Shown here: positions 4,628 through 23,212 of the stretch, piece by piece
How the letters are laid out: every line of letters begins with the position of its first letter
Numbering within the stretch: the stretch's first letter is position 1
Assembly: GCF_015207665.1 (NCBI RefSeq)
Contig: NZ_JADEWL010000068.1
Coordinates: forward strand, 1 to 35,619
Source: Plectonema cf. radiosum LEGE 06105
GTDB lineage: Bacteria; Cyanobacteriota; Cyanobacteriia; Cyanobacteriales; Nostocaceae
Length of the DNA: 35,619 nucleotides
Direction of reading: 5' to 3'
Notes under the pieces: generated by a model
What the model was told of the DNA's origin: nothing
The model's input: only the letters and a program-made list of their open reading frames with translations
Databases searched by the model: none
Translations under genes and position numbers: made by a program

Positions 4628-4767
4628 TATTTTGGATACTCTATGGGGATTTAAACGCCCGGACGCATTTCATACAACCTATGACTCAGGGGACTTTAAC
4701 CCCGAAGCGAGGAGAAGTTATGAAGTAGTCTCCCCCTCTTCCCTCTTCCGATGCGATCAAAGTGAGT

Positions 4768-5088: not shown

Positions 5089-5160
5089 CTAAATATTATT
5101 GTAGCTTCAAACTTTTTTAGGTACTTTAACATTTATATACCATACCGACAATGACTAAGA

Positions 5161-6039: not shown

Positions 6040-6075
6040 TTTCTATTCTTCGATGAAAAATATTCAGTAGATAGC

Positions 6076-6244: not shown

Positions 6245-6388
6245 AGATAGATATAAATAAATTCAGCATTCACAAGGGTTGCTCTAAGTGATACATCGCT
6301 CAATACAAACTAAAATTTGTTTGGATGTTTCCAGAAATGTTTACCTACTTACTGGATGCAATTAAAATTACAGGGGTAAATTCTGACT

Positions 6389-6811
6389 CTAATCCAAAAA
6401 CCCGATCAGATTTTCAGAATCTTTCACAGTATTTGCAGCGACTGGACGATTCCTCATCACCCCATCAGTTTGAGAAACTATTAACGAACTAGAACCAATT
6501 GGACGTATTCCAGACTGGTTAATAGTGCTAACAATATCTATTGTATGAACGCCGATGGGACGAATACCCATGATATTCATCGTCTTCACAACTTTGAGTT
6601 TGCTAGCACCAATCGGACGTATCCCTGCACAGCGAAATGTCTTAACAACTTCTATGTCTTTGATAATCGGACTAAGTTCGGAATTTGCTGGTGTTTGCAG
6701 AATTTCCAGCTTATTTGACGATTCTACTGATGATATTGGCATCATACCAATACTTTTACCATCAGCCACACGCCTGGACTGTTCGCTCTTATCCTGTTGT
6801 TGTACTTTCAC
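6389..6811 (-). CDS. Small GIRPIG-repeat protein
   Basis: A 140-residue protein of unknown function. Residues 53-129 consist of four tandem repeats of 19-20 residues with the pattern VVxTxxxxGIRPIGxxxL: ...CAGIRPIGASKL, ...IMGIRPIGVHTI, ...QSGIRPIGSSSL and a divergent last copy ...MRNRPVAANTV. A weaker copy starts at residue 35 (LEILQT). The first 30 residues are polar and charged. There is no signal peptide, membrane segment or Cys-rich site (a single Cys). The regular hydrophobic-polar spacing suggests short beta-strands stacked per repeat, which is inference. No clear ribosome binding site precedes the ATG. It lies between the MITE and the arsR fragment with no evident operon partner. Confidence 0.6.
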   Translation of the reverse strand: MKVQQQDKSEQSRRVADGKSIGMMPISSVESSNKLEILQTPANSELSPIIKDIEVVKTFRCAGIRPIGASKLKVVKTMNIMGIRPIGVHTIDIVSTINQSGIRPIGSSSLIVSQTDGVMRNRPVAANTVKDSENLIGFLD

Positions 6812-6930
6812 TGTAGTTTTCTGCGGGACTAACCCGAAAAGGTGAGCTTGAGAGTTATTTATCTAACTTGCTGAAGCATAGCATAAGTGTTAAACTATCT
6901 GCAATACTTTGAAGGTAGAGAGATATTAAT

Positions 6931-7071
6931 ATGCTCTTTGAGCCTAGTTACTTCAAGGCAGACTTTTTCAAGGTTCTGTCCAACCCTGTGCGGATTCAAA
7001 TATTGGATACTCTGCGAGAGGGTGAACAAAACGTGAATTATATTGCCCTTTGTTACCTTCCTCCGCGATGA
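6931..7071 (+). pseudogene. arsR-family gene, 5' fragment
   Basis: ATG at 6931, preceded by AAGG (6912-6915) about 15 bases upstream, opens a frame that reads as an ArsR N-terminus: FKADFFKVLSNPVRIQILDT and then LREGEQNVNYIA. It matches the intact ArsR at 4768-5088 at 31 of 39 residues. After NYIA (about 7047) the likeness stops abruptly: the frame runs on for 7 unrelated codons and ends at TGA 7069-7071. The helix-turn-helix and wing are missing, so the product cannot be a working regulator. The break point joins sulP-derived sequence (next entry). Confidence 0.85.
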
Positions 7072-7378
7072 ACCGGAAGTGAAGTATTTAATTTTGCGGT
7101 TACGGTTTGTGCCAAATATGGACACGACTGGATTAGTAGCCTTAGAAGATATTTACCACGACTTAAAACGGCATAATTGCCGCTTAATTCTCACAGGTTT
7201 ACAACCGGAAGTCAAACAAATATTAGAACGTTCAGGGTTTTTACAAACAATTGGGTTATCAAATTGTTTTGAAACAACCACAGATGCGATTTGTTCTATC
7301 AGTCCTCAGATTGCAGGATGTTCTGAAACTGTAACAGATGATTTGAAAACAAAAGAATTAATGAAGTTAAATGATTGA
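7037..7378 (+). pseudogene. SulP-type anion transporter gene, 3' STAS fragment
   Basis: The open frame from 7037 encodes about 113 codons that match the cytoplasmic STAS domain at the end of SulP-family anion transporters: EVKYLILRLRFVPNMDTTGL, ALEDIYHDLKRHNCRLILTG and VKQILERSGFLQTIG. The transmembrane part of the transporter is absent, and the only starts are a TTG at 7043 and later internal codons. It is in a different frame from the preceding arsR fragment, with overlap. ArsR-type regulators often sit next to sulP in bacteria, so one deletion spanning the end of arsR and most of sulP explains both fragments. A free-standing STAS protein (anti-anti-sigma type) is less likely because the first strand is missing. 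Confidence 0.75.
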
Positions 7379-7408
7379 CAATAATGGTTTATGTGATTAA
7401 ATTTCAAT

Positions 7409-7462
7409 GTTTGTAGTTGGGATGCCCGCCCTTGATTTGAGCGATAAATCGCAACTACGAAC
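7409..7462. repeat. Inverted repeat GTTTGTAGTTG...CAACTACGAAC
   Basis: An 11-base inverted repeat (one G-T pair) at 7409-7419 and 7452-7462 encloses a second palindrome, GCGATAAATCGC (7441-7452). This layout is typical of cyanobacterial intergenic palindromic repeats. It lies 30 bases after the sulP fragment and might end its transcript. Confidence 0.6.
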
Positions 7463-7569
7463 CTATCAAAACTAATGAAATGAACTACTACTTTACTCTC
7501 AGCAAAGCATAATAGATATTTCTAATCATCAATAAAGTCTCATACTTTGTCCCATTTTAATTAGGATGT

Positions 7570-7618
7570 GTGATTTTATTATCCAATCAAATTAAACAAA
7601 TTTAATTGATTAAATCAC
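7570..7618. repeat. AT-rich imperfect hairpin
   Basis: GTGATTT (7570-7576) pairs with AAATCAC (7612-7618), and inside it AATCAA pairs with TTGATT with further A/T pairing. It lies 70 bases upstream of the receiver-domain gene. A structural or regulatory role is possible but not shown. Nothing else is recognised in the 7379-7689 gap besides this and the preceding repeat. Confidence 0.4.
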
Positions 7619-7689
7619 CACCCTTTGATAAGCATCAATATCAATTGGATTGTCCTATTACGAAGAAATAACTCAAACCAAAGAAAATC

Positions 7690-8082
7690 ATGAAGAATAT
7701 CCTAGTTATTGAAGACGATATAAATTTTCGTCATCTTTTATGTCAATTTTTGAGAAATAATAATTTTCAGGTAATTGAAGCCAACAATATTTTCATGGGT
7801 TCACATTTAGCTAATGAACAGTACCCAGATTTAATTGTTTATTCATTAGAGATAGTTGAAGAAATCGGCTATCAAAAATTTCAAAAAATACATGGAGATT
7901 CAACAATTTTTGAAATGCCTTTGATATTTTTAACAAAACATACAGATATTTCTTATTCGTTCAAAAAAAATAATCAAATAGGTGCAGGTATTTTATTGCA
8001 AAAGACAGTAGGATTCAATCGGATTTTGAAAATAATTCAGACTGAATTAAACAAAAAAATTCCCGATTTTTATGTTCATTAA
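7690..8082 (+). CDS. Receiver-like protein lacking the phospho-acceptor Asp
   Basis: A single-domain, CheY-like protein of 130 residues. It opens with MKNILVIEDDINFRHLL, where ED-D supplies the acidic pocket. The strand that normally ends in the phosphorylated Asp reads PDLIVYSLEI: Ser stands where Asp is expected. The later strand MPLIFLTKHTD keeps the Thr position and ILLQKTVG keeps the conserved Lys. Phosphorylation by a histidine kinase is therefore unlikely, and the protein may act as a constitutive or ligand-gated binding module. No kinase gene is adjacent. The ATG has no strong ribosome binding site. The gene is AT-rich relative to its neighbours. Confidence 0.75.
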   Translation: MKNILVIEDDINFRHLLCQFLRNNNFQVIEANNIFMGSHLANEQYPDLIVYSLEIVEEIGYQKFQKIHGDSTIFEMPLIFLTKHTDISYSFKKNNQIGAGILLQKTVGFNRILKIIQTELNKKIPDFYVH

Positions 8083-8236
8083 AAATCCCACTTTAAATAA
8101 GTGGAAGAAAATTCAAACCCAAGCTAAAAAATGGTATGATTTTTATCAATCATAACTCCTGTACTTCTTAGAAGTTCCCTGTTCCCTCAACCCTATTTTC
8201 AAGCTAGAGTTTCAGCAGTCAATCTACGAATAAAAA

Positions 8237-8821
8237 ATGAAGAACACTATCAATCAATCGAAGACTGATCAATGTGTTTGTTGTCATCCCTCGCCTAGTC
8301 GTCGTCATTTCCTTAAATCCTTCCTTCCTGGAGCAGTAGCATTTAGTATTTTACAATCAACAGCACCTGCCAAAGCGGAAACTCATCAAGCAAAAGCTTT
8401 AGTTCTGAGTTGTATTGATTTTCGATTTTTGACAGCAGAAAGTGATTTTTTAGGGAGGAAACATTTAGGTGGTGAATATGATTGGACAGCCTTAGCTGGT
8501 GCTTCCTTGGCTGTCAGAGGATTTCCTCATCCATCTGATGCCGAAGCATTTTGGGACCAGTTGGATCTATCCTATCGACTACATCATATTAACAAAGTGA
8601 TTGTCATCGACCATCAAGACTGTGGCGCTTATGCAACTATGATTGACCCTGATTTAAGTAAAAACCCGGAGAGAGAATTGCAAATACATACAGAATATTT
8701 ACATCAAGCTTATCGTTCAATTCGCGATCGCTATCCAAATATTGAAGTAGAGCTTTATTTTGCGACTCTTAACAAAGCCGAATTTCAACGGATTTTATCT
8801 GTAAGTAGGGTAGCGGTTTGA
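8237..8821 (+). CDS. Tat-exported beta-carbonic-anhydrase-like protein
   Basis: Likely a zinc enzyme or enzyme-like protein of the periplasm or thylakoid lumen. The N-terminus carries a twin-arginine signal, SRRHFLKSFLPGAVAFSIL, with probable cleavage after APAKA (about residue 47). The mature part has beta-carbonic-anhydrase-like motifs: SCIDFR (C-x-D-x-R, near residue 59) and VIDHQDCGAY (H-x-x-C, near 125), which would supply the Cys-His-Cys zinc site and the Asp-Arg dyad. At 194 residues it is close to a short beta-CA after signal removal. Three Cys precede the Tat motif (CVCC). No ribosome binding site is obvious. Carbonic anhydrase activity is an inference; related proteins have often been left unassigned. 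Confidence 0.75.
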   Translation: MKNTINQSKTDQCVCCHPSPSRRHFLKSFLPGAVAFSILQSTAPAKAETHQAKALVLSCIDFRFLTAESDFLGRKHLGGEYDWTALAGASLAVRGFPHPSDAEAFWDQLDLSYRLHHINKVIVIDHQDCGAYATMIDPDLSKNPERELQIHTEYLHQAYRSIRDRYPNIEVELYFATLNKAEFQRILSVSRVAV

Positions 8822-8962
8822 TTTATCGCTTGAGTAGATGTATTCTTGTGGGGTGGACATCCCTGTGCGCCCGAATTTCACCCAATCCACAAACAAAAAC
8901 TTCCAGTTGCCTTAAAAATTCCTTTCAAAGTTCAATACTTACCATAAATAAATATTTTTGTC

Positions 8963-9004
8963 AAGACCAGTTTCTCAATCCATCAGCACCGTAAAACTGA
9001 TCTT
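8963..9004. repeat. Hairpin AAGACCAGTTTC...AAAACTGATCTT
   Basis: An imperfect 12-base inverted repeat with an 18-base loop. The right arm is the same sequence as the arms of the hairpin at 19452-19491, so the two are copies of one short repeat. It lies in the 8822-9166 gap, which otherwise shows only a HIP1-like octamer near 9019. Confidence 0.5.
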
Positions 9005-9166
9005 TCGTCAAGTAGTGCGATCGCGCCATACTAATCAACTAGCTAGTGGTTCATATCTTGAGTGATGGGGAGTTTTGAGATAGGGGGAGTTACAGGAAAT
9101 AAAAATTCCGATTTTTTAGAGAAAGAAATGGACTACTAGGGGTTGAAGTTCTCGAATCTAAAAATT

Positions 9167-9973
9167 ATGTCTAAAATTATCTCGATTCACTCCTTCCGGG
9201 GTGGAACTGGAAAATCAAACCTCATCGCTAATTTAGCAGTATTAATTGCACTTCAAGGTAAACGGGTAGCAATTGTTGATACTGACTTACAATCACCCGG
9301 TATTCATGCTCTATTTAATCTTGATGTTAATAATCTTAATGGTCATAATGCTCAGAAAACATTAAATGACTATTTATGGAATAATTGTTCCATTGTTGAT
9401 ACAGCCTATGATGTTAGTTCTTATCTAGAAATTCCCAGTCAAGGAAAAGTTTTTTTAATTCCCGCGAGTTTGAATCCGGAAGAAATTACAAAAATCCTCA
9501 GTGAAGGTTACAATGTAACGTTGCTTAATAGTGGATTTCAACAACTAATTCAAGAACTACAATTAGATTATTTATTTATTGATACCCATCCAGGTTTAAA
9601 TAAAGAAACCTTACTTTCTCTAGCAATTTCCCACAGAATATTAATAATTTTACGTACCGACAGCCAAGACTTTCAAGGAACTGCTGTCACCATGAATATA
9701 GCTCGTCAATTGCAACTAGAAAATATCCTCATGGTTATTAATAAAATACCAAGTCAGATTGATATTCATGGACTGCAAAAACAAATAGAACAAAAATATC
9801 ATGTACCAGTTGCAGGTGTTTTACCATTTTTAGAAGATATGGCAATATTAGGTAGTACGGGACTATTTTGTTTACAGTATCCCGACCATTATTTTACTCA
9901 AAAATTAAAGCAAGTTGCTGAGGAAACAATACAAGATTTTCAACTTATACGAAAAGTGGAAAGTTTAACTTGA
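9167..9973 (+). CDS. ParA/MinD-like P-loop ATPase
   Basis: A cytosolic SIMIBI-class ATPase of 268 residues. The deviant Walker A reads IHSFRGGTGKSNLIANLA at residues 7-24, with Arg in place of the usual first Lys and with Gly-Thr-Gly-Lys-Ser intact. Then come AIVDTDLQSPGIHALF (Walker A' region), DYLFIDTHPGLNKETL (Walker B) and the NKIP base-recognition motif. No partner parB or min genes are present, so plasmid or septum roles are not supported. The ATG at 9167 is preferred over the TTG at 9143 because the conserved MSKIISIHS strand starts there. It lies 166 bases upstream of a vMAP-HTH/AAA ATPase on the same strand, suggesting a functional pair. Confidence 0.85.
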   Translation: MSKIISIHSFRGGTGKSNLIANLAVLIALQGKRVAIVDTDLQSPGIHALFNLDVNNLNGHNAQKTLNDYLWNNCSIVDTAYDVSSYLEIPSQGKVFLIPASLNPEEITKILSEGYNVTLLNSGFQQLIQELQLDYLFIDTHPGLNKETLLSLAISHRILIILRTDSQDFQGTAVTMNIARQLQLENILMVINKIPSQIDIHGLQKQIEQKYHVPVAGVLPFLEDMAILGSTGLFCLQYPDHYFTQKLKQVAEETIQDFQLIRKVESLT

Positions 9974-10006
9974 ATAGACTTATTAACTTATACTGACAAC
10001 GCTCAT

Positions 10007-10071
10007 AGAAGTCGGGTTTTCCAGAATTAATATCTGTAATACAAGAGAAACTTGATAAAAACCTGACTTTT
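10007..10071. repeat. Palindromic repeat AGAAGTCGGGTTTT...AAAACCTGACTTT
   Basis: Inverted arms at 10007-10020 and 10058-10071 differ at two positions. The same element, with perfect 16-base arms, ends the window at 35532-35595. Both copies are about 64 bases long. Here it lies between the ParA-like gene and the next ATPase gene and could reduce readthrough. Confidence 0.7.
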
Positions 10072-10139
10072 TACCTGACGAAAAATATAGGTTTCACAGC
10101 TTTTATTGTAATTAACTTATCCCCAGTTAAATTAATCTC

Positions 10140-11552
10140 ATGATGGAAACCAATCTGACAGAAGAAACGATTAATTTTGAATCCGCACTTAAATTAGTAG
10201 ATGCAGCGGTATTTCGGAAAACCCAGAGACATCTCAAAAATATTGAAGTAGTTGTCCTCAAGGGAGCATTACTAGGTCAAAAGTATGACAAAATCGCCGA
10301 TAATTGTGGTTACGCTCCTGAATATATTAAACATGATGTCGGACCAAAACTGTGGCAATTACTTTCCTTAAGTTTGGGTGAAAAAGTTGGTAAAAATAAT
10401 TTAATGGCTGTGTTGACACAGCGAACATTTGCAGAAGCAAATATTGGTGTAAATGCAGAGGAAAATCCAGAAAATCCTTCCAAAGCTACCTCTATATCAA
10501 CTAACAGTAACCAAACCGCAGAATTAGAAGCACCAGTCGGACTCATACCTTTAGAATCCAGCTTATACATAGAACGGCACGGCGTAGAATCTCGTTGTTA
10601 TGAAGAAATTAGCAGAGCGGGAGCATTAATTCGCATTAAAGCACCTAGTCAAATGGGTAAAACCTCCTTAATGGTGAGAATTTTAGCCCACGCAAAACAA
10701 CAGCATCAAATTAACACAGTTGCACTCAGTTTACAAAGAGCAGAGCGTTGTATTTTTAGCGATTTAGATAAATTTTTGCGCTGGTTTTGCACTTCCATAA
10801 CTCGCAAATTACACTTACCCTATCGAATCGAAGATTACTGGAGTGATACATTTGGTAGCAAAAGCAATTGTACAGCTTATTTTGAAGACTGTTTACTACC
10901 AAATATTAATGGTGCTTTAGTACTAGCATTAGATGATATTGACGAGGTATTTTTACATCCCGAAATTGCCGATGATTTCTTTACTTTACTCCGTTCCTGG
11001 TATGAAGAAGCAGCCTATGGAGATAGCGGTAATCCCCTGTGGCAAAATCTCCGCTTAATTATCGTCCATTCCACAGAAGTGTATATACCTTTAGATATTA
11101 ATAAATCTCCCTTTAACGTCGGTTTAGCAATTGAATTACAACCATTTACACCAGAACAAATAATTAATTTACAAACACGTTATGGGCTATCTTTATCAGA
11201 AAATGAATTGTCAGAATTAATACAACTTGTTACAGGACATCCCTACTTAATTCAACAAGCTTTATATCATTTAGCATCTCAAACTTTGACATTTACACAG
11301 TTAATAAAAACAGCCCCAACAGACGCAGGAATTTATTATCATCACCTCCATCGACACTTAGGAAATTTACAAGAACATCCCCAATTAGCAGCCGCATATA
11401 CAGAAGTAATTAAATCACCCATACCTGTAGAATTAGAACAATTCTGTGCATTTAAACTCCATAGCATGGGTTTAGTAAAACTGCACGGCAATCAGGTAAT
11501 ATCCAGTTGTGAACTCTATCGTCAGTACTTTCAGGAACGTGTTGAACTGTAA
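10140..11552 (+). CDS. vMAP-type HTH plus AAA/STAND-like ATPase protein
   Basis: A 470-residue protein with two parts. Residues 14-95 match the N-terminal helix-turn-helix domain of vWA-MoxR-associated proteins (vMAP): ALKLVDAAVFRKTQRHLK, KYDKIADNCGYAPEYIKHDV, LWQLLS and GEKVGKNNL. A 35-residue polar linker follows. The ATPase is of the AAA_35 type, with P-loop APSQMGKTSL at 168-177, Walker B LVLALDDIDEV near 265 and the P-F-N-V-G-L-A-IEL motif near 325. The C-terminus is a winged-helix-like tail with no sensor repeats or effector. In known vMAP proteins this HTH is fused to NTPases of predicted conflict or signalling systems. The partner is probably the upstream ParA-like ATPase. ATGs at 10140 and 10143 are equally possible. 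Confidence 0.8.
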   Translation: MMETNLTEETINFESALKLVDAAVFRKTQRHLKNIEVVVLKGALLGQKYDKIADNCGYAPEYIKHDVGPKLWQLLSLSLGEKVGKNNLMAVLTQRTFAEANIGVNAEENPENPSKATSISTNSNQTAELEAPVGLIPLESSLYIERHGVESRCYEEISRAGALIRIKAPSQMGKTSLMVRILAHAKQQHQINTVALSLQRAERCIFSDLDKFLRWFCTSITRKLHLPYRIEDYWSDTFGSKSNCTAYFEDCLLPNINGALVLALDDIDEVFLHPEIADDFFTLLRSWYEEAAYGDSGNPLWQNLRLIIVHSTEVYIPLDINKSPFNVGLAIELQPFTPEQIINLQTRYGLSLSENELSELIQLVTGHPYLIQQALYHLASQTLTFTQLIKTAPTDAGIYYHHLHRHLGNLQEHPQLAAAYTEVIKSPIPVELEQFCAFKLHSMGLVKLHGNQVISSCELYRQYFQERVEL

Positions 11553-11594
11553 ACTTATCTAGTATCGTATTGATGAAAACTCTGCCAAATCAGA

Positions 11595-12902
11595 TCACGT
11601 TACATCGGGTAATTCTTTTTCTACTTTTCTCAACGGGGGATAATAATATCCAAAAATTTTAATCAACATAATAATTAATCCCATCAAAATAAACATTAAT
11701 CCAATGCCTCTTCCTGTACCAATACCTATGATTTTTCCCATAGTTTCAGCTAGCAAACCGTTAGCAGACATTAAGGGTTCAAAAATATTATCAGCAAGGG
11801 GTCCAGCGACTAAATAAGCGATAGGAAAAGATATCCCCGTAACTCCCCCAATTAATGCAAATACTCTACCTTGAACATCATGGGAAACTTTCTTTTGAAA
11901 GATAAATCGGGTCGAACTGTTGATAATTGGCCAAGTAAAAAAGAATAAAAATGCTGCTAAGGCTGAGAGGATGACAGAAGTTTTTAATCCTGCTGCTAAG
12001 ATTGATAATCCCCCTAAAAATTGAAAGATAAATATACTATTAATCTTTGATTTTGGTCCTCGATGAATAATAATTAATAGGCTACTCAGCAACATCCCAA
12101 TTCCACCGATGGACATGATACTTCCTAAAGCTGTTGGGGAAGCAAAGGATAATACTAATGGGGTGATTAATACTTGAACTACTCCTAAGCCTAAGTCAGT
12201 GACGGCAGAGAATATGAGTAATCCGAGTAATCCCTTTCTTTTGAACACGTATTTACAACCATAGATAATCTCTGTGAATAATGAGCTATGATCTATTTTT
12301 TTAGTTATAGCTTTTTTCTCATTTGGAAATTGAATACTAATGAGAATTAAGAAGGAGAAAATAAAGCTAAGAAAGTCAATCAAGATGATACCTTGTAGCC
12401 GGATATTTATGATTAAAACACCAGCTAAGACAGGTGAAATTAGTTGAGGTAAAGCTTCTCCTAATTCAATCATGCCATTCGCACGACTTAATAATTGTTT
12501 GGGAACTATCAGAATGGTAGCAGCATTATAAGCTGGCCATTGAAAGGAACTAAAACTAGCACTGGTAATTGTCACTAAATATATATGCCAAATTTCTAGA
12601 TGATTGGTGATTAGTAGTACAAATAACAATAATGTACTGACACCTGCACCAGAATCAGCAATAATCATTACCCAGCGACGTTGCCAACGATCTACCACAG
12701 CACCAGCTACAGGAGAAATAATAATCCGGGGAATGGTTGCAAATAAAGAGATTAGGGCAAATTGTGTTACTGAACCTGTATGTTGATATACCCACACACC
12801 CAAGGCAAAATTGGTTAATCCAGAACCAGTTAGGGAAGCTACTTGTCCCAACCATATAAGTATAAAAATTTGCATTCCTCTCGTAGTTAGGGGTTGAATC
12901 AT
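11595..12902 (-). CDS. MFS exporter of the NRPS locus
   Basis: A 435-residue integral membrane protein with about 12 hydrophobic segments, of the MFS group that includes enterobactin and macrolide exporters. The N-terminus reads FILIWLGQVASLTGSGLTNFALGVW and the loop 2-3 motif is AGAVVDRWQRRWVM. It begins 2 bases after the stop codon of the thioesterase remnant, with GGGAG about 9 bases upstream of the ATG, so it was the last gene of the NRPS operon. The likely role was export of the lipopeptide product. The frame is intact. With the synthetase broken it may now be an orphan that still has some substrate, or is on the way to loss. Confidence 0.85.
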   Translation of the reverse strand: MIQPLTTRGMQIFILIWLGQVASLTGSGLTNFALGVWVYQHTGSVTQFALISLFATIPRIIISPVAGAVVDRWQRRWVMIIADSGAGVSTLLLFVLLITNHLEIWHIYLVTITSASFSSFQWPAYNAATILIVPKQLLSRANGMIELGEALPQLISPVLAGVLIINIRLQGIILIDFLSFIFSFLILISIQFPNEKKAITKKIDHSSLFTEIIYGCKYVFKRKGLLGLLIFSAVTDLGLGVVQVLITPLVLSFASPTALGSIMSIGGIGMLLSSLLIIIHRGPKSKINSIFIFQFLGGLSILAAGLKTSVILSALAAFLFFFTWPIINSSTRFIFQKKVSHDVQGRVFALIGGVTGISFPIAYLVAGPLADNIFEPLMSANGLLAETMGKIIGIGTGRGIGLMFILMGLIIMLIKIFGYYYPPLRKVEKELPDVT

Positions 12903-12904
12903 TG

Positions 12905-13318
12905 TTATGCAACTCCCACGATTTCAACTTGATTGATACAAACTTTTAGCTTTTCAGCTAATACTTGAACGTGGGGTGTGTTGAGCATGGTGTGATGATT
13001 TCCAGGAACTATGTGGATTTCCACTGGTTGAGAAGTAACTTTGTTCCAACCCCATGTTATATCTGTGGGAATAAAAGTATCTTCTGTGTCATCTTCTTTG
13101 GCTTGGAAAAGTGCAATTCGCAGGGGATAAATATCTGCTGCTAAACAATTAAATGAATAATTCATTCCCGCTTGGACATTAGCATCAAAAACTTGAATTA
13201 AATCCTGTACTTGCTCAGTTGTACTGTCGTTAAATTGTTCTTGAAGGTAATTTAATTGTTCATCAAAATTAAGTTTTTTCCAAGCCTGATAATCAACTTC
13301 TAATTTTTTGCCCGATAG
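12905..13318 (-). pseudogene. NRPS thioesterase, 3' fragment
   Basis: From 13318 the minus strand reads LSGKKLEVDYQAWKKLNF, then DEQLNYLQEQFN, VFDANVQAGMNY, IYPLRIALFQAKED and IVPGNHHTMLNTPHVQVLAE before TAA at 12905. This is the last third of a type I thioesterase domain, including the catalytic His (GNHHTML); the GxSxG nucleophile part is absent. The frame is shifted relative to the A domain just upstream, whose frame stops at TAG 13302-13300, so no fusion protein can form. The only ATG in frame is internal (13165), giving 86 residues. The sequence is therefore a remnant left by a deletion between the A domain and the thioesterase. Confidence 0.85.
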
Positions 13319-16300
13319 ACGTTTGCTTGTTTAACTTGGGGATGGGTATTGATAACGGATTCAATTTCTCCCAATTCGATTCGGAAACCACGAATTTTTA
13401 CTTGGTTATCAATGCGTCCGACAAATTGAATGTTTCCATCTGCTAAATAACGTGCTAAATCTCCTGTTTTATACAATTTGGGAGACGTTATATATAACGT
13501 CTCTACATAATTAAATGGGTTATCAATGAATTTTTCTTGGGTTAATTCGGGACGATTTAAATAACTCCTAGCAACACCATTCCCACCGATATATAACTCA
13601 CCGACAACACCTACAGGTACTGGTTGTAAATTCTTGTCTAAAATATAAACTTGGGTATTAGCAATTGGACAACCAATCGGTACACCACCAGTTTGATTTT
13701 CTACCTTTCGCAAATCCGGTTCATAAATTGTAGCTGTAATTGTCGCTTCCGTCGGACCGTAAGCATTGAGTAATTTGATATGTTGACCTATGTATTTCTG
13801 CCAGAGAGCAACTTTTTCCCATCTCACTTGTTCGCTACCGACAACCACCAATCGTAAACAGTTTGGGAGAAAATACTCAGATTGAGATAAATCTAAAACC
13901 CATTCATGCCAAAATGCAGCAGGTAAATTTAATACCGTTAACTCCTGCGATTTAATAAATTCCACCAAGTCTGTAAAAGTAGCAAACATTTCTTGGGGAC
14001 GTAATACTACTGTTGCACCACTTAACCAAGAAGGGAAGATTTCTTCAATTGCAACATCAAAACTCAAAGCTGCAAATTGTAGGACTTTATCTTGAGAGGT
14101 GAGATGAAATCGATGTGCGATCGCGTTACTATGATTAACTAAATTATGGTGGGTGACTAGTACTCCTTTGGGTTTTCCGGTAGAACCGGAGGTGTAAATT
14201 ACATATCCCAGGTTGTTTGGTTGGACATTGGATAAGATATTGTTTGTACTATAATTAGCAATTTCTTCTTCTTGTTTATCTACACAGATGATTTTGAGTT
14301 CATGGGTAGGTAATTGGGTGAGGAGATTCTCAGTTGTTAATAAAATGGACACTCCAGAATCCGACAAAATATAATCTAAACGTTCTTGGGGATAGCTAGG
14401 ATCGAGGAGTACATAAGCACCACCTGCTTTGAGAATTGCTAATAGTCCTACCATCATTTCTAAGCAACGATTTATGCAAATTCCCACTAATGTTTCTGGT
14501 TTTACTCCTAATGTTTGTAGATGGTATGCTAGTTGGTTTGCACGCTGATTTAATTCTTGGTAGGTTAATTGTTGATTTTCAAATACAACTGCGATCGCAT
14601 TTGGTGTTTTTTCAACTTGTTCCTCAAATAATTGATGGATACATTTATCTTGGGGATATTCAGTTTGAGTATCATTCCATTCTACTAATAGTTGATGATG
14701 TTGGGATTGGTTAAGTAAAGGTAGATTAGCCAGAGATTGTTGCGGATTCGTGACTGTTGCTGTTAACAATGTTTGGAAAAGTTCCAGGAAGCGATGAATA
14801 GTGCTGTCATCAAATAAATCGGTATTGTAGTCAAAATCAAAAACTAATTCCCCATCTATTTCGCTGACATTGAGACAAATATCATGGTCTACAAAACTTA
14901 GAGTTTGAGGTAATAAACTGGTTTCAACTCCAAACATTGTTGGCACAGCTAAAGGCCGATTCAAGTTAAATATGGCTGTCACCAAAGGAGATATTTTTTG
15001 ATTTCTGGATATTTTGAGCTTTTCAATTAACCTTGCAAACGGATAATCTTGGTGAGTGTAAGCATTTAACAATTCAGTTTTCGTTGCTTGTAAATGTTGG
15101 GAGAAATTGTAATTCTGATCAATGTAACTTCTAATTGGTAATAGATGAGAACAGTAACCGACAATATTTTCACTACCTTTAAATCTTCCCGCAGATGGAA
15201 CACCAACCACAATATCTTCTTGACCTGTTAATCTGTACAGTAATGTTGTATATACAGATAGCAAAGTCATTAATAAAGTGCAATTATTCTCTTTACTAAA
15301 CTGCTTGATATTCTGAAATAAATTAGTATCAAGCTGAAGAGTTTGCCGATTTGCTTTGTAAGTTTTAATTGCTGGACGGGGACGGTCTGTAGGTAAATCT
15401 AAAATCGAATTTTCAGTTTTGAATTTTTCTAACCAATAGGACTCATACAGTTGCATTTCTGATGTTTGAACTTGTTGTTCTTGCCACTGAATATATTCTC
15501 TAAATTGCATAGATGGCTTGAGTCGAGTATCAAAATTCTGACATTCTGCTGAATAGAAAGTAGCCAATTCTTGCAGAATTATACCCATTGACCAACCATC
15601 AATAATAATATGATGGGCAGTGAAAACAAGTAGGTGATACTTGGACGTTAATTTCAGGATATAAAAGCGACATAAAGGAGCTTGATTTAAATCAAAAACA
15701 GTTAAACTTTCCTTTTTAAACCACCTATCTAATTGAGATTGACGTTCTTCTGGATGGAGATAGGAAAAATTAATTACAGGAATTTCAACTTCCAAATTAG
15801 GCAAGATATACTGAAAATCACCTTCATTACTAATACTTGTCCGCAAAGCTTCATGACGATTTACTAAACTTTGTACCGCTTGACGCATTGCTGCTAATTG
15901 AAACTCACCCTTGAATTCTGCGGTAGCTGAAACATTATAAGCTAAGGAACCATCATCCCCCATGTTGCCTAAAATCCAAAGTTGTTTTTGTGCCTCAGAA
16001 AGGGTTATTTTTAATTGTTCTTCTCTTTCTTCTTCTACTTTGTGTACTTTGCGTCCTCTGCGGTTTGTTTCTCTTAAATTAGACTCTAAAGATTGATTTT
16101 GATTAATATAATTTGCCAAAGCATCAAGAGTAGTTAACTCTTCAAATAACTGCCGAAGTTCAAGATTAATACCAAAGCAATTTTCCACAGCCTCAGCAGC
16201 TTCAGCTAATACCAAAGAATCAGCACCCATTGCCATCAAAGATTGATTAATATCAACCTCGGCAAAATCTATTTTTAATAAACTCGCAAAAATATGACGT

Positions 16301-17697
16301 AGTTTGACTTGAATTTTCTCTAACTCTGGAGATATTTTAATTACTTCTTTATCCTGTTTCTTGTTTGTTATCTCCTGCTTTAAAGCATCCATATCTGCCA
16401 ATAAATTGCGAAACTCAGATTTACGATCAGGACTCTTACTCCAATCCCAAACAAGATTTAAATCCCCAGCCAGAAAACCAGCCCGACAAGCACGACGGCG
16501 AATTTTACCACTAGAAGTTTTGGGAATACTTCCGGTTTTTAAAAGTAGGATAGTATGAACTTGTAATTCATGTTCTTCCCCAACAGCCTGTAAAATATTT
16601 TTCGCGATCGCATCACCATCTAGCTTTCGTAAATACTCACGTTCTACCTCACAAGTAACTACCAAATGTTCCTGTCCATTAATATCCACTGAAAATGCTG
16701 CACTCGCACTTTCTTTAACAGCAATATGACTTGTTTCTACAGTTAATTCAATATCCTGGGGATAATAATTCCGTCCGCGAATAATAATTAAATCTTTCAA
16801 TCTACCAGTTACAAATAATTCCCCATTCTGCAAAAAACCTAAATCACCACTCCGTAAAAAAGAACCTTCTTGAGTATCTGCCAAATAAGCCGAGAAAGTA
16901 GCTTGAGTTTCTTCTACTTTTCGCCAATATCCTTGAGCAACACTTGCTCCTCTAATCCAAATTTCTCCAACTTCATCATCAGAACAACGTTGTAATGTTT
17001 CCGGATGAACAATTACAATCTGATGATTTTCAATATTGTTACCAGAACTAACAAAAGTCTGAGCATAATTAGTTTTTGTAGACGCTGGAATCACACGATT
17101 TTCTAACAATCCTTTACCATCAACACTTGTTAGTATCGGTGCATCTTTTTTCACACCACCAGTAACAATTAAAGTACTTTCAGCCATCCCATAACAAGGA
17201 TAAAAACTACTAGCACGAAAACCACAACTTGCAAACGTCTCTGCAAACTTAGTTAGAGTTTCAGCACGAATTGGTTCCGCACCATTAAAAGCAACTTCCC
17301 AACTACTTAAATCAAGGGTTTCTCGTTGTTCAGGTGTAATTTTACGCACACATAGGTCATAAGCAAAATTTGGTCCACCACTGGTAGTAGCTTTGTAGCG
17401 AGAAATAGCTTCTAACCACTGAAAAGGCTTTTGTAAAAAATCCACAGGTGACATCAGTGCAACCGGAAAACCACCGTAAAGAGGTTGGAGAATTCCACCA
17501 ATTAATCCCATATCATGATAAGGAGGTAGCCAAATCACACCTTGACTGTGGGATGAATGAGCAAAACACTGATGAATTGCAGCTAAATTGGCTAACAGGT
17601 TGCCGTGGCTAACCATAACACCTTTTGGCATCCCCGTAGAACCAGAGGTGTATTGCAGAAAAGCGAGGGAATCACGATTTATCTGTAATGGTTGCAA
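13300..17697 (-). pseudogene. FAAL-ACP-C-A lipopeptide synthetase, truncated at both ends
   Basis: The open frame encodes 1465 residues. Residues 1-430 are the rear two thirds of a fatty acyl-AMP ligase (LAFLQYTSGSTGMPKGVMVS, WLPPYHDMGLIGG, GRLKDLIIIRGRNYYPQDIE). The acyl carrier domain follows with MGADSL (Ser 494), then a condensation domain with HHIIIDG at 695-701, then an adenylation domain from about 1030 (YTSGSTGKPKG, NAYGPTEATI, YKTGDLARY, GFRIELGEIE). The chain breaks off at HPQVKQANVYRAKN, losing the A10 Lys and the peptidyl carrier. At the 5' end about 150 FAAL residues are missing: the frame is closed by TAG at 17701-17703 and starts only with TTG. It once activated a fatty acid and loaded one amino acid; it is unlikely to work now. 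My reading of the A-domain pocket is D-V-E-N-V-V-A-I-T; the substrate is not assigned. Confidence 0.8.
13482..13503. repeat. 22-base perfect palindrome inside the NRPS A domain
   Basis: GAGACGTTATATATAACGTCTC is a perfect palindrome and belongs to the cyanobacterial GTAGAGACG...CGTCTCTAC repeat family. It falls in the NRPS frame at residues 1399-1406 between PFNYV and SPKLYKTGD, where usual A domains have a short variable loop. It appears to have been inserted in frame without a stop. Confidence 0.8.
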
Positions 17698-17772
17698 TCT
17701 CTAATCTCGATAGTTTTGCTTGATCTATTGCAATGTAAAATGATCTTGATCAAATAGGAGTGTATATAATAA

Positions 17773-18411
17773 GTGAAACCAATTTTAGGTTTAGCCATCA
17801 GTTCCATATTCATTTGTTCACCAGCTTCTGCAATTGTTCAATTACAACCCTTATCTGGTGTCAAGATTTTAGTTAATCCAGGACACGGAGGGCAAGAAAC
17901 TGGTGCGGCTGGTCCAACAGGATATTTAGCTAAAGATGTCAGCTTGAGTGTATCTAAGTTGCTCCGCGATCAACTGGTGTTAAGAGGTGCGATAGTGGTG
18001 ATGACGCGAGAAGATGACATAGAATTAAGTTTATCCGATCGCCAAGCCATGATTGATCGAGAAGAACCAACCATCGCTATAACTATACATTACACAGCAG
18101 TACCCGACGACGGAGATGCCGAGAATAGCAAGGGTATTAGAACTTTTTGGTATCATTCCCAAGCTCATAGTCTAGCCGTTTTTCTGCATAATTATCTAGT
18201 TAACCAGCTAGGACGTTCATCAATGGGGGTGTTTTGGAATAATTTGGCTTTAACTCGTCCCTCTACAGCACCATCAGTGGTAATGGAACTGGGTTTTATG
18301 ACCAATCCTGAAGAATTTGAATGGATAGCTAATACCGACGAACAAAAAAAATTAGCGCGAGTCTTGGCAGATGCTATTGTTGAGTGGTTTCAGAATCAAA
18401 TCACTCCATAA
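17773..18411 (+). CDS. N-acetylmuramoyl-L-alanine amidase (Amidase_3) homologue
   Basis: A 212-residue exported cell-wall hydrolase of the AmiC zinc family. A signal peptide of about 20 residues ends at SPASA. The fold motifs are ILVNPGHGGQETGAAGPTG (zinc His 38), TIHYTAVPDDGDAENSKG (zinc His 106), FWNNLALTRPSTAPSVVMELGFM (catalytic Glu). The second zinc ligand, Glu in the usual EKD motif, is Ala here (YLAKDV, Ala 53, codon GCT), so zinc binding and activity are doubtful. GTG 17773 is taken as the start, with AGGAG at 17756-17760 twelve bases upstream; no better start is in frame. It is divergent from the truncated synthetase and convergent with the next gene. Confidence 0.85.
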   Translation: MKPILGLAISSIFICSPASAIVQLQPLSGVKILVNPGHGGQETGAAGPTGYLAKDVSLSVSKLLRDQLVLRGAIVVMTREDDIELSLSDRQAMIDREEPTIAITIHYTAVPDDGDAENSKGIRTFWYHSQAHSLAVFLHNYLVNQLGRSSMGVFWNNLALTRPSTAPSVVMELGFMTNPEEFEWIANTDEQKKLARVLADAIVEWFQNQITP

Positions 18412-18433
18412 TCATAACTTGAGATGAGATAGC

Positions 18434-19369
18434 TTATCCCGGATTAACTGGCGAATATTCCCCAAATTGCCAACGTAAACGAGTCGCATTTTGAGTTTCT
18501 AATACCTGCTTAATCTCAAACTCAACTAAACGCTCTGCTCCAGCAAATTCACTTAATCTTTCTGCATCCCAAATCACTTTTGCTTTTCCTGTTAATTGCA
18601 ATATATCACCTGCTTGAAAGTCTATAAATAATAAACCTGCATGGGAATTTACAAGCAAGTTACCAAAGGTTTGAAACATATTATTTCCTGAATAATCAGG
18701 AAACAGTAATTTGTTACTATTTAAAATTCTTACAAATCCCGGAAATCCTCCTCGATGAGAAGCATCTGCACCACTTTCGGGATGAAAACTAGCAATAAAA
18801 AAAGTATCCGATTGAGCTATCCAAAATTGATTTTTTTCGTTTAAAGCATCTCTGGTAACAGTTTCAGCTTGTTCTAATGAATCATTTACAGTTTTTTCTA
18901 TATGACGGATTTGAATATATTTAGGACAGTTGAAAAATGCTTGTTTAATGTCTACTTTTATATTTGTTGAACTGAGCCGCCCATCAGTACAGGTACCGCT
19001 AATCTCTGCTTTGCCATTGAAACGCGATCGCCTGCGATTTGCCAAGTCAATCACTAATAAACCAATATCTTGGTTGTTTTCCAAGTTTTGATACAGTGGA
19101 ATGGTAGATTTAGAACAGCCATCAATTTGTACATTAATGTGTAAGGTCTGCTGGTTGAGAACTTGGATAAAACCAGGTTCTCCTGTTAATAAAGATGCCC
19201 AAACTTGACTATGTATATCTACTGTACTAGCAATTGCTAATTGTTGTGTGCGAAGAAATTCCTGTGCTGCTGGTTTGATCAAATTACTGATTACACTACA
19301 CAGTTTTTGTGCTTCTTCACGCACTCCCGCTTGGTTTTGGACTGCGATTTCTCCAGAATGGAAAGACAT
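18434..19369 (-). CDS. Pyridoxamine-5'-phosphate-oxidase-like (FMN split-barrel) protein
   Basis: A 311-residue cytosolic protein of the PPOX-like flavin-barrel family, built from two barrel-like halves. The first half has WASLLTGEPGFIQVLNQQTL and NQDIGLLVIDLANRRRSRFNGKAEI. The second has TFFIASFHPESGADASHRGG, FPGFVRILNSNKLLFPDYSG and NAGLLFIDFQ-type strands with LTGKAKVIW. The GxADASHRGG segment is characteristic of this group, and likely binds FMN or a related flavin. The substrate is unknown; relatives are annotated only as pyridoxamine-phosphate-oxidase-like. The stop is 23 bases from the convergent amidase stop. No ribosome binding site is clear at the ATG. Confidence 0.8.
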   Translation of the reverse strand: MSFHSGEIAVQNQAGVREEAQKLCSVISNLIKPAAQEFLRTQQLAIASTVDIHSQVWASLLTGEPGFIQVLNQQTLHINVQIDGCSKSTIPLYQNLENNQDIGLLVIDLANRRRSRFNGKAEISGTCTDGRLSSTNIKVDIKQAFFNCPKYIQIRHIEKTVNDSLEQAETVTRDALNEKNQFWIAQSDTFFIASFHPESGADASHRGGFPGFVRILNSNKLLFPDYSGNNMFQTFGNLLVNSHAGLLFIDFQAGDILQLTGKAKVIWDAERLSEFAGAERLVEFEIKQVLETQNATRLRWQFGEYSPVNPG

Positions 19370-19451
19370 TGGGATTTGGAATTTGGAATTGTTTGAATAT
19401 CAATTACTTAATACTATTTTCAAGTTTTGCTGACATCACCTGAGATGCTCA

Positions 19452-19491
19452 AGATCAGTTTTGCGATCGCAAATACCCATAAAACTGATCT
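19452..19491. repeat. Perfect hairpin AGATCAGTTTT...AAAACTGATCT
   Basis: Eleven-base perfect inverted arms with an 18-base loop contain a HIP1 octamer. It lies about 100 bases upstream of the NB-ARC-WD40 gene, between two divergent genes. A second, imperfect copy lies at 8963-9004. Confidence 0.65.
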
Positions 19492-19588
19492 AGGCAAATT
19501 TTTATGAATATGCTATTGCAAATTAGATTAAAGTTCTGCAATATATACCTATAAGAAATATGTATATGTACAGGATGTATAGCAAATC

Positions 19589-22500
19589 GTGGCAACTCTC
19601 AAAGCTTCTCAACAGGGAATCACAGCGATTAAGCAAGCTAGAATTGCTCAGGGTTGGTCTGTCGATGATTTTCGCTGGTTAGAGTCAGCGAGTGAGATTT
19701 TGGGTGTTTCTTGGCAAGAAAATGGTGTTTTGGCAGTGGGAATTTCCGAGGGTACCTGGAAAAGATTTTTAGCAGGAAAAAACCCAATTAATGCTGATGC
19801 TTTTAAAGCTTATTGTCAGGTTTTGGGGTTGAATTGGCAAGAAGTTGGGGAAATTGCGGTAAAAAAAGAATTTTCTTCTTCCCACCCTCTCCCCCTCTCC
19901 CCTCTTATAGATTGGGGTGATGCTCCCGATGTATCATTTTTTTATGGTCGTCAAGCAGAAATACAGATAGTTAAGCAATGGGTTGTGCAAGAAAAATGTC
20001 GTTTAATAACCTTGTTGGGGATGGGTGGTATCGGTAAAACGACGCTTTGTGTCAAGGTAGCGCAACAAATTGTTGAAATGCAGGATTTTGCCTGTTTAAT
20101 TTGGCGAAGTTTGCGTAATGCACCACCGATTGAAGATATTTTAGTTGAATTAATTCAGGTTTTTTCTAAACAGCAAGAAACGGTTTTACCTGTTACTTTA
20201 TCAGGTCAAATTTCACTGTTATTAAAATATTTGCGTTCATCACCTTGTTTGTTGATTTTAGATAATGCTGAATCGATTTTACAACCAGGTGAACGCACTG
20301 GTAGTTATCAAGTGGGATATGAGGGATATAGTGAATTATTCCGATGTTTTGCAGAGACTTTCCATCAAAGTTGTTTGATTTTAACTTCACGAGAAAAACC
20401 CCAAGGTTTGGCAAAATATGAAGGAGAAAGTTTACCTGTACGTTCTTTACAATTAACAGGTTTAGCAGAAACGGAAGGGCGAGAATTATTTGGTCTTCAA
20501 GGTAAATTTAAGGCTTCAGAAGTACAATGGCAAGCTTTAATTTCTCGTTATGGTGGTAATCCTCTGGCTTTAAAAATTGTTGCCTCTTCTATTCACGATT
20601 TTTTTGATGGTGATGTTTGCCAATTTTTAGAAATTTCTCTGCAAAGTACGTTTATTTTTGATGATATTCGAGATTTACTTGACCAACAGTTCTATCGGCT
20701 CACAAAGTTAGAACAACAAATCATGTTTTGGGTTGCAATTAATCGTGAACCTGTTTCTTTATCTGAATTACAAACAGATTTTGTAATTAATGTTTCCCCA
20801 CGTGAGTTATTAGAATCTCTTTCATCTTTGCAACGACGTTCTTTTATTCAACAATCTAAAGACGCAAAATTTCGCGTCTCTACCGTGTTTACTCAGCAAC
20901 CTGTGGTGATGGAATATGTGATTAATCAAATCATTGAGAAAATCTGTGATGAAATAGTTAATCAAAAAATATATTTATTTGCGAGTCATGCTTTGATGAA
21001 AGCACAAGCTAAAGATTATGTGCGCGAAACTCAAATCAATCTAATTTTACAACCTATTATTAACCAATTGACTAATCAACTTGGTAGTTCAGAAAATATT
21101 TATTGTTATCTCAATCAAATTCTCTCAAGTTTCCGAGGAAAATCAGCCAAAGAAACGGGATATTTAGCTGGTAATTCTCTGAATTTATTACATCAAGCAC
21201 AAGTTGATATTAGCGACTGTGATTTTTCTGGTTTAACATTATGGCAAGCATACCTACAAGGTGTACATTTACATGATGTCAATTTTTCTAATTCCGATTT
21301 ATCTCGTTGTGTATTTACGGAAATTTTAGGCAATATTTTATCAGCTAATTTTAGTTCAAATGGAAAGCTTTTAGCAACTTGTGATACTGACTGTAATGTG
21401 CGGATTTGGGAAGTAAAAACAGGTAAATTACTATTAATTTGTCAAGGTCATAATAACTGGGTGCGCTTTGTAACTTTTAGTCCCAATGGAGACATTTTAG
21501 CGAGTTGTGGTGCCGATCATCAAATTAAATTATGGAATGTTCGCGATGGTATTTGCATTAAAACCCTAACTGGACATGATCATGAAATATTTTCTCTCGC
21601 TTTTAGTCCCAAGGGTAATATCTTAGCAAGTGCAAGCGGCGATCGCACAATCAAAATCTGGGATATTTACGACGGTAACTGTATCAAAACTCTTACTGGA
21701 CATACAGATTGGGTGCGTTGTGTTACTTTTAGTCCCCAGGGAGAAATTTTAGCAAGTAGCGGTGCAGACCATAAAATTAAATTGTGGGATCTAGAAACGG
21801 GGGAATGTGTCCAAACCCTGAGTGAACATCAAAATTGGGTACGTTCCATTGCATTTAGTCCAGATAATCAAACTTTAGCAAGTGCAAGTGGCGATCGCAC
21901 AATTAAAATCTGGAATTATCAGACAGGGGAATGCCTTAAAACCTATAGTGGACATACAAACAGCGTTTATTCTGTGGCTTTTAGTCCTGGGGGTGAGATA
22001 CTTGTAAGCGGAAGTGGCGATCGCAGTGTGAAAATCTGGGATTGCAAGACTCATACTTGCATTAAAACTTTACATAAACAAACTAATGAAGTTTGCTGCG
22101 TTGCTGTAAGTCCCGATAATCAAACAATTGCTTGCGTCAGCTTAGACCAAACCATGCGATTATGGGATTATCATAGCGGGGAATGTTTAAAAACTTGGCA
22201 AGGAAATACGGATTGGGCATTGCCTGTAAAATATAGTCCAAATAATCAAATTTTAGCAAGTGGAAGTAATGACAAAACGATTAAATTATGGGATTGGCAA
22301 ACAGGAAATTGTTTAAGAAGTTTACAAGGACATAGTGATTTTATTTATGGACTTGCTTTTAATCCAGAAGGACAAATTTTAGCCAGTGCGAGTACAGATT
22401 CTACTGTTAGATTATGGGCTGTAAATACAGGTAAATGTTTTCAAATATTACAAGGACATACAGATTGGGTTTATGCTGTAGAATTTCATCCCAACGGTGA

Positions 22501-23179
22501 AATTATAGCTAGTGCAAGTGCCGATTGTACAATAAAAATATGGGATTGGCATACAGGACAATCTTTCAATACTTTAACTGGTCATACTGATAAAATTTTG
22601 GGAATCACCTTTAGTCATGATGGTAAAATATTAGCAAGTGCTAGTGCTGACCAAACTGTGAGAATTTGGGATTGGCAAACGGGTAATTGTTTGAAAATTT
22701 TAAGCGCCCATGCAGACAGAATTTATGCAGTTATATTCAGTCAAGATGATCGGATTTTAGCAACTTGTAGTACAGACCAAACAATTAAACTTTGGCAATT
22801 CCCAACAGGAGAGTTTTTAAAAACCTTAACTGGGCATAAAAATTGGGTCTTTTCTATAGCTTTTAGCCCAGATATAAATACTCTTGCTAGCGCTTCCCAT
22901 GACCAAACCGTGAGAATTTGGGATGTAAAAACAGGAGAATGTAAATACATTTGTGTGGGACATACACATTTAGTTTCTGCTATTACTTTTAGCCCAGGAG
23001 GTAAATTTATTGCTAGTGGTTCCCAAGACCAAACTGTGAGAATTTGGGATATCAATACGGGTGAATCTACCAGAATTTTGATTGCGAAAAGACTTTATGA
23101 AGGAATGAGAATTACTGGAGTTAAAGGATTAACAGATGCGACAATTTTAACGCTACAAGCTTTGGGTGCAGTGGTGTGA
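19589..23179 (+). CDS. STAND protein: HTH-like, NB-ARC, pentapeptide-like, 14 WD40 repeats
   Basis: A 1196-residue signalling or defence-type NTPase. Residues 1-90 look helix-turn-helix-like (GVSWQENGVLAVGISEGTWK, AFKAYCQVLGLNWQEVGE). The NB-ARC ATPase follows the FFYGRQAEI entry motif: P-loop LLGMGGIGKTTL near 145-155, LLILDNAES Walker B, LILTSREKP and GNPLALKI (GxP). A short pentapeptide-like stretch (CDFSGLTLWQAYLQG) leads into 14 WD40 repeats from about 580 to 1165, enough for two seven-bladed propellers. The propellers probably sense a ligand and relieve inhibition of the NTPase; no toxic effector domain is recognisable. The start is GTG 19589. Two repeat-derived insertions are visible: a C/T-rich run at 19883-19915 in the linker and a palindrome at 20861. 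Confidence 0.9.
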   Translation: MATLKASQQGITAIKQARIAQGWSVDDFRWLESASEILGVSWQENGVLAVGISEGTWKRFLAGKNPINADAFKAYCQVLGLNWQEVGEIAVKKEFSSSHPLPLSPLIDWGDAPDVSFFYGRQAEIQIVKQWVVQEKCRLITLLGMGGIGKTTLCVKVAQQIVEMQDFACLIWRSLRNAPPIEDILVELIQVFSKQQETVLPVTLSGQISLLLKYLRSSPCLLILDNAESILQPGERTGSYQVGYEGYSELFRCFAETFHQSCLILTSREKPQGLAKYEGESLPVRSLQLTGLAETEGRELFGLQGKFKASEVQWQALISRYGGNPLALKIVASSIHDFFDGDVCQFLEISLQSTFIFDDIRDLLDQQFYRLTKLEQQIMFWVAINREPVSLSELQTDFVINVSPRELLESLSSLQRRSFIQQSKDAKFRVSTVFTQQPVVMEYVINQIIEKICDEIVNQKIYLFASHALMKAQAKDYVRETQINLILQPIINQLTNQLGSSENIYCYLNQILSSFRGKSAKETGYLAGNSLNLLHQAQVDISDCDFSGLTLWQAYLQGVHLHDVNFSNSDLSRCVFTEILGNILSANFSSNGKLLATCDTDCNVRIWEVKTGKLLLICQGHNNWVRFVTFSPNGDILASCGADHQIKLWNVRDGICIKTLTGHDHEIFSLAFSPKGNILASASGDRTIKIWDIYDGNCIKTLTGHTDWVRCVTFSPQGEILASSGADHKIKLWDLETGECVQTLSEHQNWVRSIAFSPDNQTLASASGDRTIKIWNYQTGECLKTYSGHTNSVYSVAFSPGGEILVSGSGDRSVKIWDCKTHTCIKTLHKQTNEVCCVAVSPDNQTIACVSLDQTMRLWDYHSGECLKTWQGNTDWALPVKYSPNNQILASGSNDKTIKLWDWQTGNCLRSLQGHSDFIYGLAFNPEGQILASASTDSTVRLWAVNTGKCFQILQGHTDWVYAVEFHPNGEIIASASADCTIKIWDWHTGQSFNTLTGHTDKILGITFSHDGKILASASADQTVRIWDWQTGNCLKILSAHADRIYAVIFSQDDRILATCSTDQTIKLWQFPTGEFLKTLTGHKNWVFSIAFSPDINTLASASHDQTVRIWDVKTGECKYICVGHTHLVSAITFSPGGKFIASGSQDQTVRIWDINTGESTRILIAKRLYEGMRITGVKGLTDATILTLQALGAVV
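20861..20878. repeat. Palindromic repeat inside the NB-ARC-WD40 gene
   Basis: GACGCAAAATTTCGCGTC is an 18-base near-palindrome (one mismatch), followed by TCTAC. It matches the same GTAGAGACGCG...CGCGTCTCTAC repeat family as 13482-13503 and 23213-23255. It lies in frame and encodes DAKFRV between QQSK and STVF, without harming the frame. Confidence 0.65.
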
Positions 23180-23212
23180 ATATCAGTTTTTACTCTTGGT
23201 AAACATTCATTA

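Follow-up and report, generated by a model that had tools for sequence, protein, structure and literature searches.

Contig NZ_JADEWL010000068.1 of Plectonema cf. radiosum LEGE 06105, analysed over its entire length of 35,619 bases (hereafter the window), carries a truncated nonribosomal peptide synthetase (NRPS) locus that is very probably what is left, in inactivated form, of a lipopeptide synthetase cluster with two genes, two modules and an MFS exporter, after decay by deletion. Intact homologues exist, essential parts are missing at defined breakpoints, and no orthologue-level match to the missing parts occurs elsewhere in the genome (7.6 Mb in 323 contigs, completeness listed as 100). 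Comparison among assemblies supports real cluster decay, in that there are two intact clusters, one that is differently eroded and one near-complete loss. The intact clusters lie on the Nostoc sp. UHCC 0870 plasmid NZ_CP091914.1 (L032; genome G145) and in genome G514 (L078), and the differently eroded one on CALJJQ010000076.1 (L016; genome G406), a metagenome-assembled genome of an uncultured Calothrix sp. The features of the locus, comprising fatty acyl-AMP ligase (FAAL), acyl carrier protein (ACP), condensation (C), adenylation (A) and thioesterase (TE) regions, are as follows.

13300-17697, reverse strand: NRPS remnant; FAAL without its N-terminal ~156 aa, ACP, C, and A cut before A9/A10; starts at an internal TTG
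16456-17697, reverse strand: FAAL remnant (aa 1-414), YTSGSTG motif retained
16105-16305, reverse strand: ACP (Pfam PP-binding, aa 465-531), phosphopantetheine motif GADSLV retained
14686-16011, reverse strand: C domain (Pfam, aa 563-1004), HHIIIDG motif retained
13324-14628, reverse strand: A domain remnant, C-terminal subdomain lost (Pfam AMP-binding full-length, aa 1024-1380)
13322-13324, reverse strand: deletion junction, equivalent to 24312/29883 in L032, 10925/16523 in L016 and 10657/16230 in L078; ~1 bp of microhomology
12905-13323, reverse strand: C-terminal half of the TE in another frame, GNHH motif retained, part with the GYSFG nucleophile motif lost
11595-12902, reverse strand: intact MFS transporter, 435 aa, 91% amino-acid identical to that of L016
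17687-17731, no strand: 5' breakpoint zone, between the FAAL remnant and the amidase upstream region, from alignments to relatives
17773-18411, forward strand: N-acetylmuramoyl-L-alanine amidase gene, outside the synthetase, now adjoining the truncated FAAL

Architecture of the remnant

The synthetase remnant is a single open frame of 1465 aa, closed on its 5' side by a TAG at 17701-17703, and is 78% identical at the amino-acid level to the first synthetase of L032 over 1453 aligned codons with two alignment gaps. Pfam assigns it two AMP-binding matches, a DIP2-like AMP domain, PP-binding and Condensation; within the window there is no Pfam match to AMP-binding_C or to a second PP-binding domain, both of which are present in L032. 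The NCBIfam fatty acyl-AMP ligase models match the first ~410 residues only from model position ~145-200 onward, which indicates that the start of the FAAL is missing, although their scores fall under the models' whole-protein cut-offs for the window frame and the intact L032 protein alike. Against intact L032, the first ~156 FAAL residues are absent. The thioesterase frame (12905-13330) aligns to positions 122-221 of the 226-position Pfam Thioesterase profile at 21.9 bits, under the 26.4 cut-off, and is 84% identical to the complete thioesterase of L016 over 139 aa; it corresponds to L032 residues ~1200-1334, where the Pfam span is 1073-1318, so that about half of the domain is left. Both the window and L032 have a FAAL joined to an ACP and followed by C-A, the FAAL of the window being incomplete, while the C-terminal subdomain of the A domain, the peptidyl carrier protein (PCP) and a release domain with its nucleophile are all present in L032 and not in the window. 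Because it has no complete FAAL, A C-terminal subdomain, PCP or TE nucleophile, the remaining frame should be unable to complete a catalytic cycle.

A preliminary description of this DNA had reported the FAAL-ACP-C-A frame, the thioesterase remainder in another frame, the TAG and the intact MFS gene, all of which are borne out by open reading frames, Pfam matches and alignments. Its loss of about 150 FAAL residues also stands, with the figure adjusted to ~156 against L032. The frame was said to end just before A10, and it is indeed cut near there, but before both A9 and A10 in the customary motif naming; the last third of the thioesterase that it described is instead about half.

Intact relatives and the ancestral form

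Among 72,556 plasmid records, the best DNA match was the UHCC 0870 plasmid, at 80.7% over 90% of the query; five records matched in total, the other four covering 2-7% of the query. In UHCC 0870 and G514 the gene order is FAAL-ACP-C-A-PCP-E, then C-A-PCP-TE, then MFS, and the two clusters are 97.0% identical over 13,007 bp. The UHCC 0870 proteins are WP_237996749.1 and WP_237996758.1, with the MFS protein WP_237996760.1; the first synthetase has 2228 aa, and the second was analysed as a 1334-aa frame that begins 18 bases ahead of the annotated start. The final Condensation-family stretch in the 2228-aa protein is probably an epimerisation (E) domain, judging by its position after the PCP at the end of the gene. 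Both clusters share identical domains and order with what is left in the window, at 80% DNA identity over the shared synthetase and 78% over the TE and MFS genes, and UHCC 0870 also has the companion genes (AAA-like, MinD/ParA, PNPOx and two WD40-type genes). The difference is that both are complete, whereas the window lacks ~5.57 kb internally and ~468 bp at the start, and its surrounding gene order is rearranged. The single-module ancestor proposed earlier, FAAL-ACP-C-A-T-TE, therefore gives way to a larger form in two genes, with the flanking arrangement also changed; alignment to intact FAAL clusters, which had been proposed as a check, places both breakpoints by means of these two relatives.

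In the intact form, the FAAL would activate a fatty acid and load it onto the ACP, module 1 (C-A-PCP-E) would add an amino acid that the E domain would epimerise, and module 2 (C-A-PCP) would add a second residue before release by the TE and export by the MFS protein. With positions mapped as we presume them to correspond, the residues of the first A domain (D-V-E..A..I-T) match no specificity code known to us, and those of the second (D-A/S-T..E..V-G) resemble what we take to be the asparagine code. Among the titles listed for strain name, accessions, locus tags and topic terms in a collection of open-licence papers, none described either intact two-module FAAL cluster; the strain name led to work on aeruginosins. 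The flanks of the G514 cluster (L078 2518-4873 and 18211-19242) hold transposase-like frames that read as Tn3-type by translation, along with a frame that is 83% DNA-identical to the integrase gene annotated beside the UHCC 0870 cluster.

The internal deletion

Against each of the three relatives (L016, L032 and L078) the alignment makes one clean jump at window position 13323: 13323-17686 corresponds to 24312-19985 in L032, and 11600-13323 to 31593-29883. The 5570 bases of the intact L032 arrangement that are absent at this point comprise the end of the A domain of gene 1 (A9/A10), the PCP, the E domain, the gene boundary, the C-A-PCP of gene 2 and the nucleophile half of the TE. A single internal deletion had been anticipated and is upheld, but its extent had not, as it joins two genes and also removed the E domain and the whole C-A-PCP module. 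About 1 bp at the join, as read by eye, could be attributed to either side. Every 15-mer from the 30 bases flanking the join on each side is unique in the contig, and the 121-bp junction occurs once in the genome, its sole other match being 76% over 59 bases. The missing 5.6 kb has no orthologue-level match elsewhere in the draft genome of 323 contigs, with 40 of 123 candidates scored; the matches outside the contig are paralogue-like, the best at 67% over ~1.9 kb, with shorter ones at 84% (123 bases) and at 84-97% (some 27-60 bases), for 91 matches in total. No insertion element was seen at 13323 on inspection by eye alone, without an insertion sequence (IS) database.

These observations are consistent with an illegitimate deletion of ~5.57 kb, by end joining with ~1 bp of microhomology, that would have brought what remains of the first A domain up against the middle of the terminal TE, while a second breakpoint would have taken the start of the gene with the ~156 N-terminal FAAL residues. 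Homologous recombination between A domains 1 and 2 was considered and rejected, as their similar segment stops short of the join, which shares ~1 bp. Separately, the part of the first A domain at window 14336-14696 resembles the second A domains of relatives, with 88% identity over 361 bp in the case of L016 and 81% over 371 bp in that of L032, which suggests gene conversion or domain exchange between modules.

The 5' breakpoint

BLAST homology to the intact FAAL ends at 17686, so that gene 1 lacks roughly its initial 468 bases, and homology to the amidase upstream region in a congener (genome G007; L079) and in genome G001 (L080) starts at 17732, with the 45 bases between being ambiguous. An anchored alignment to the intact FAAL reaches ~17725 with a net 2-base difference; at a mismatch score of -1, an equal or better score arose in 12 of 300 shuffles and 12 of 600 random contig 40-mers, and at -2, 98 of 300 shuffles scored as well. 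Unanchored local alignments of the FAAL upstream of 17686 were not significant (466/1000 and 566/1000). The frameshifted FAAL segment proposed upstream in the preliminary description (IAIDQAKLSRLE) is thus weakly favoured by the anchored alignment at the milder mismatch score and not by the unanchored ones, a faint hint of diverged FAAL sequence up to 17725. The missing FAAL N-terminus had only two matches in the genome, at 51% and 52%, both in other FAAL genes. Upstream of the amidase, G007 and G001 have in common a longer flank (from L079 9889) that is absent from the window, which therefore probably lost that piece as well.

Relatives at other stages of loss

The closest relative found, L016 (amino-acid identity 87% for A over 318 aa, 84% for TE and 91% for MFS), is eroded from the opposite end, having lost the FAAL-ACP-C and the start of the A domain while retaining everything after. 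Directly ahead of its truncated synthetase, L016 6402-9698 holds FAD-monooxygenase-like and ABC-transporter-like frames, named by reading their translations, an arrangement that suggests either a fusion to a different cluster or a chimeric join.

Orthologues are otherwise rare. The TE fragment had no close orthologue besides the window in 60 relatives (best other match 45% identical), and in 388 genomes of the order, an even sample of a larger group, only three matched it at E <= 1e-30, namely the source genome (G000), G406 and G145; G514 was apparently outside this sample and was first found in the family search. Across 217 genomes of the family, with two candidates scored per genome, 69 matched the TE and MFS DNA at E <= 1e-12, of which four were near full length at 78-100% (G000, G406, G514 and G145), one was G007 with the two scraps described below, and the other 64 were shorter or weaker at 63-77%. 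For the FAAL-ACP-C DNA, searched likewise, 155 matched at E <= 1e-60, and identity was at least 81% in three (G000, G514 and G145); among the matches listed the others were at most 75%, and G406 was absent from the 155. A peptide-pattern search of genome contigs gave 11 loci, with L016 the only orthologue; UHCC 0870 was missed by this search and recovered by the plasmid search.

The congener G007 represents near-complete loss. Its identity to the window is 97% over 17732-19384, 94% over 19410-23194, 95% over 25259-26878 and ~94% over 29082-31603 and 31778-35517, with unmatched gaps between, and window 1-11598, left of the locus, has no match in the G007 stretches compared. At the synthetase site only window 11599-11841 remains (~240 bp from the 3' end of the MFS gene), split by 128 extra bases; in the TE and MFS search these scraps appeared as 144 and 108 bp at 92%. 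Identical bases in the two scraps number 128/139 and 89/95 against the window, 122/139 and 84/96 against L016, and 103/135 and 77/97 against L032, i.e. 92-94%, 88% and 76-79%. The scraps being closest to the window, the cluster, in whatever state it arrived, probably predates the split of the source strain and G007. The 128-base insert (L079 9297-9440) has TA-flanked imperfect inverted ends resembling a miniature inverted-repeat transposable element, and a 'GGACTTACGCA' stretch follows the second scrap. Left of the scar, L079 142-8881 contains genes that read, from their translations, like phage-tail or contractile-injection baseplate genes.

Genomes G001, G013 and G035 share the amidase; over the 13-20 kb compared from each, nothing scored above 60 bits against the synthetase. 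In G001, most of the PNPOx and the first WD40-type gene beside the amidase are missing (L080 2950-3124), with no match to most of window 18695-23131; this gap appears to be a further local deletion.

Selection and age

Between the window and its intact relatives, the ratio of nonsynonymous to synonymous substitution rates (dN/dS) was 0.12-0.16 for FAAL, C and A, 0.31-0.35 for ACP and linker, 0.26-0.27 for TE and 0.13 for MFS; against L016 it was 0.16 for A, 0.18 for TE and 0.13 for MFS. The remnants appear to have spent most of their divergence time as a working system, and the deletions look recent because the remnants keep an open frame and low dN/dS. Nonsynonymous and synonymous codon changes were also assigned to branches, using only codons identical in L032 and L078 (A 226, TE 126, MFS 425 codons): the window branch gave 5:11 for A, 4:2 for TE and 10:33 for MFS, and the L016 branch 8:22, 4:9 and 5:15. 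For the neighbouring PNPOx gene (298 codons, with L032 alone as outgroup) the counts were 10:15 for the window and 12:19 for L016.

Alternative explanations

Some points weigh against decay by recent deletion: the window-branch counts are too few to show relaxed selection or to date the loss; the evidence comes from assembled contigs, which strictly speaking leaves room for an assembly error or a minority variant; and the remnants have no internal stop codon, so that the FAAL-ACP-C part may have a residual role. An assembly artefact, in which the contig skips real sequence through collapse between repeated NRPS modules, was raised in the preliminary description and would be favoured by the 323 contigs, by the many NRPS-type domains of the genome (28 AMP-binding matches) and by the likeness of parts of the A domain in the window to the second one of L016 (identities of 76-79% over 357-537 bp and 88% over 361 bp). 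However, such a collapse requires a long shared word at the join, where there is ~1 bp; the similar segment (13357-13680) does not reach the join; no orthologue-level match to the skipped DNA turned up in the remaining contigs, in spite of the listed completeness; and the congener G007 has a different loss at the same locus. With ~1 bp shared, a single-copy junction and missing DNA unmatched elsewhere, a repeat-collapse artefact is therefore very unlikely. More improbable still is that the FAAL-ACP-C part is a working split subunit serving another synthetase in trans: 1465 stop-free codons, retained ACP and C motifs and low dN/dS are compatible with this, but the start of the FAAL is absent, no PCP follows the A domain, and the low dN/dS may mostly date from before the deletion. 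The same split, which the preliminary description had named as grounds for abandoning decay, was found in no relative: among the matches listed for the 217 family genomes, with two candidates scored per genome, FAAL-ACP-C DNA at 81% occurs besides the window only in the two intact clusters.

The last alternative is a variant of decay and compatible with the deletions, namely that horizontal transfer brought in a locus that was broken beforehand, the lineage never having had a functional cluster. The cluster is patchy (four of 217 family genomes with near-full-length TE and MFS), one intact copy is plasmid-borne and another lies beside transposase-like and integrase-like frames; on the other hand, the G007 MFS scraps sit at the same site beside a matching flank and are closer to the window than to L016 or L032, and arrival in a broken state seems unlikely, if less so than the two foregoing explanations. 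Decay of the cluster by deletion, as the preliminary description had proposed, is the interpretation that comparison with intact and differently damaged relatives bears out.

Companion genes and significance

MinD/ParA-like, AAA-like, PNPOx and two WD40-type companion genes lie in window 9143-11552, 17732-23183 and 31777-35507, and near the UHCC 0870 cluster in another order and orientation, so that the island has been rearranged. It is possible, though this is a tentative suggestion, that an island of these genes with the NRPS and MFS genes repeatedly loses its synthetase by different deletions, each lineage having its own, while the companions persist; if so, its intact, end-truncated (at one end or the other) and scar-only forms would provide a natural series in which to measure how producers become non-producers, and why. 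The present comparison documents different stages in the loss of one lipopeptide cluster, its breakpoints resolved to between a few bases and tens of bases, and draws attention to two complete two-module FAAL clusters as a starting point in the search for their product. A remnant of this sort may be mistaken by cluster-prediction software for a one-module lipopeptide pathway.

Comparison with known systems

Puwainaphycin is made by a hybrid NRPS/polyketide synthase line with more modules, whereas the ancestral line of the window has two NRPS modules. The likeness between them is that a fatty acyl-AMP ligase activates a fatty acid ahead of the NRPS (PMC4219810). Decay of NRPS clusters is already well documented, and the present case is of the same kind. 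Planktothrix strains are reported to have lost mcy or apn clusters while keeping short remnants, with IS elements implicated in the loss of mcy (PMC9366434, PMC4349496). The Planktothrix cases differ in having this IS link and a known product, whereas no insertion element was seen at the internal join of the window; what they share is the loss of NRPS clusters by deletion, with short flank or gene scraps left behind.

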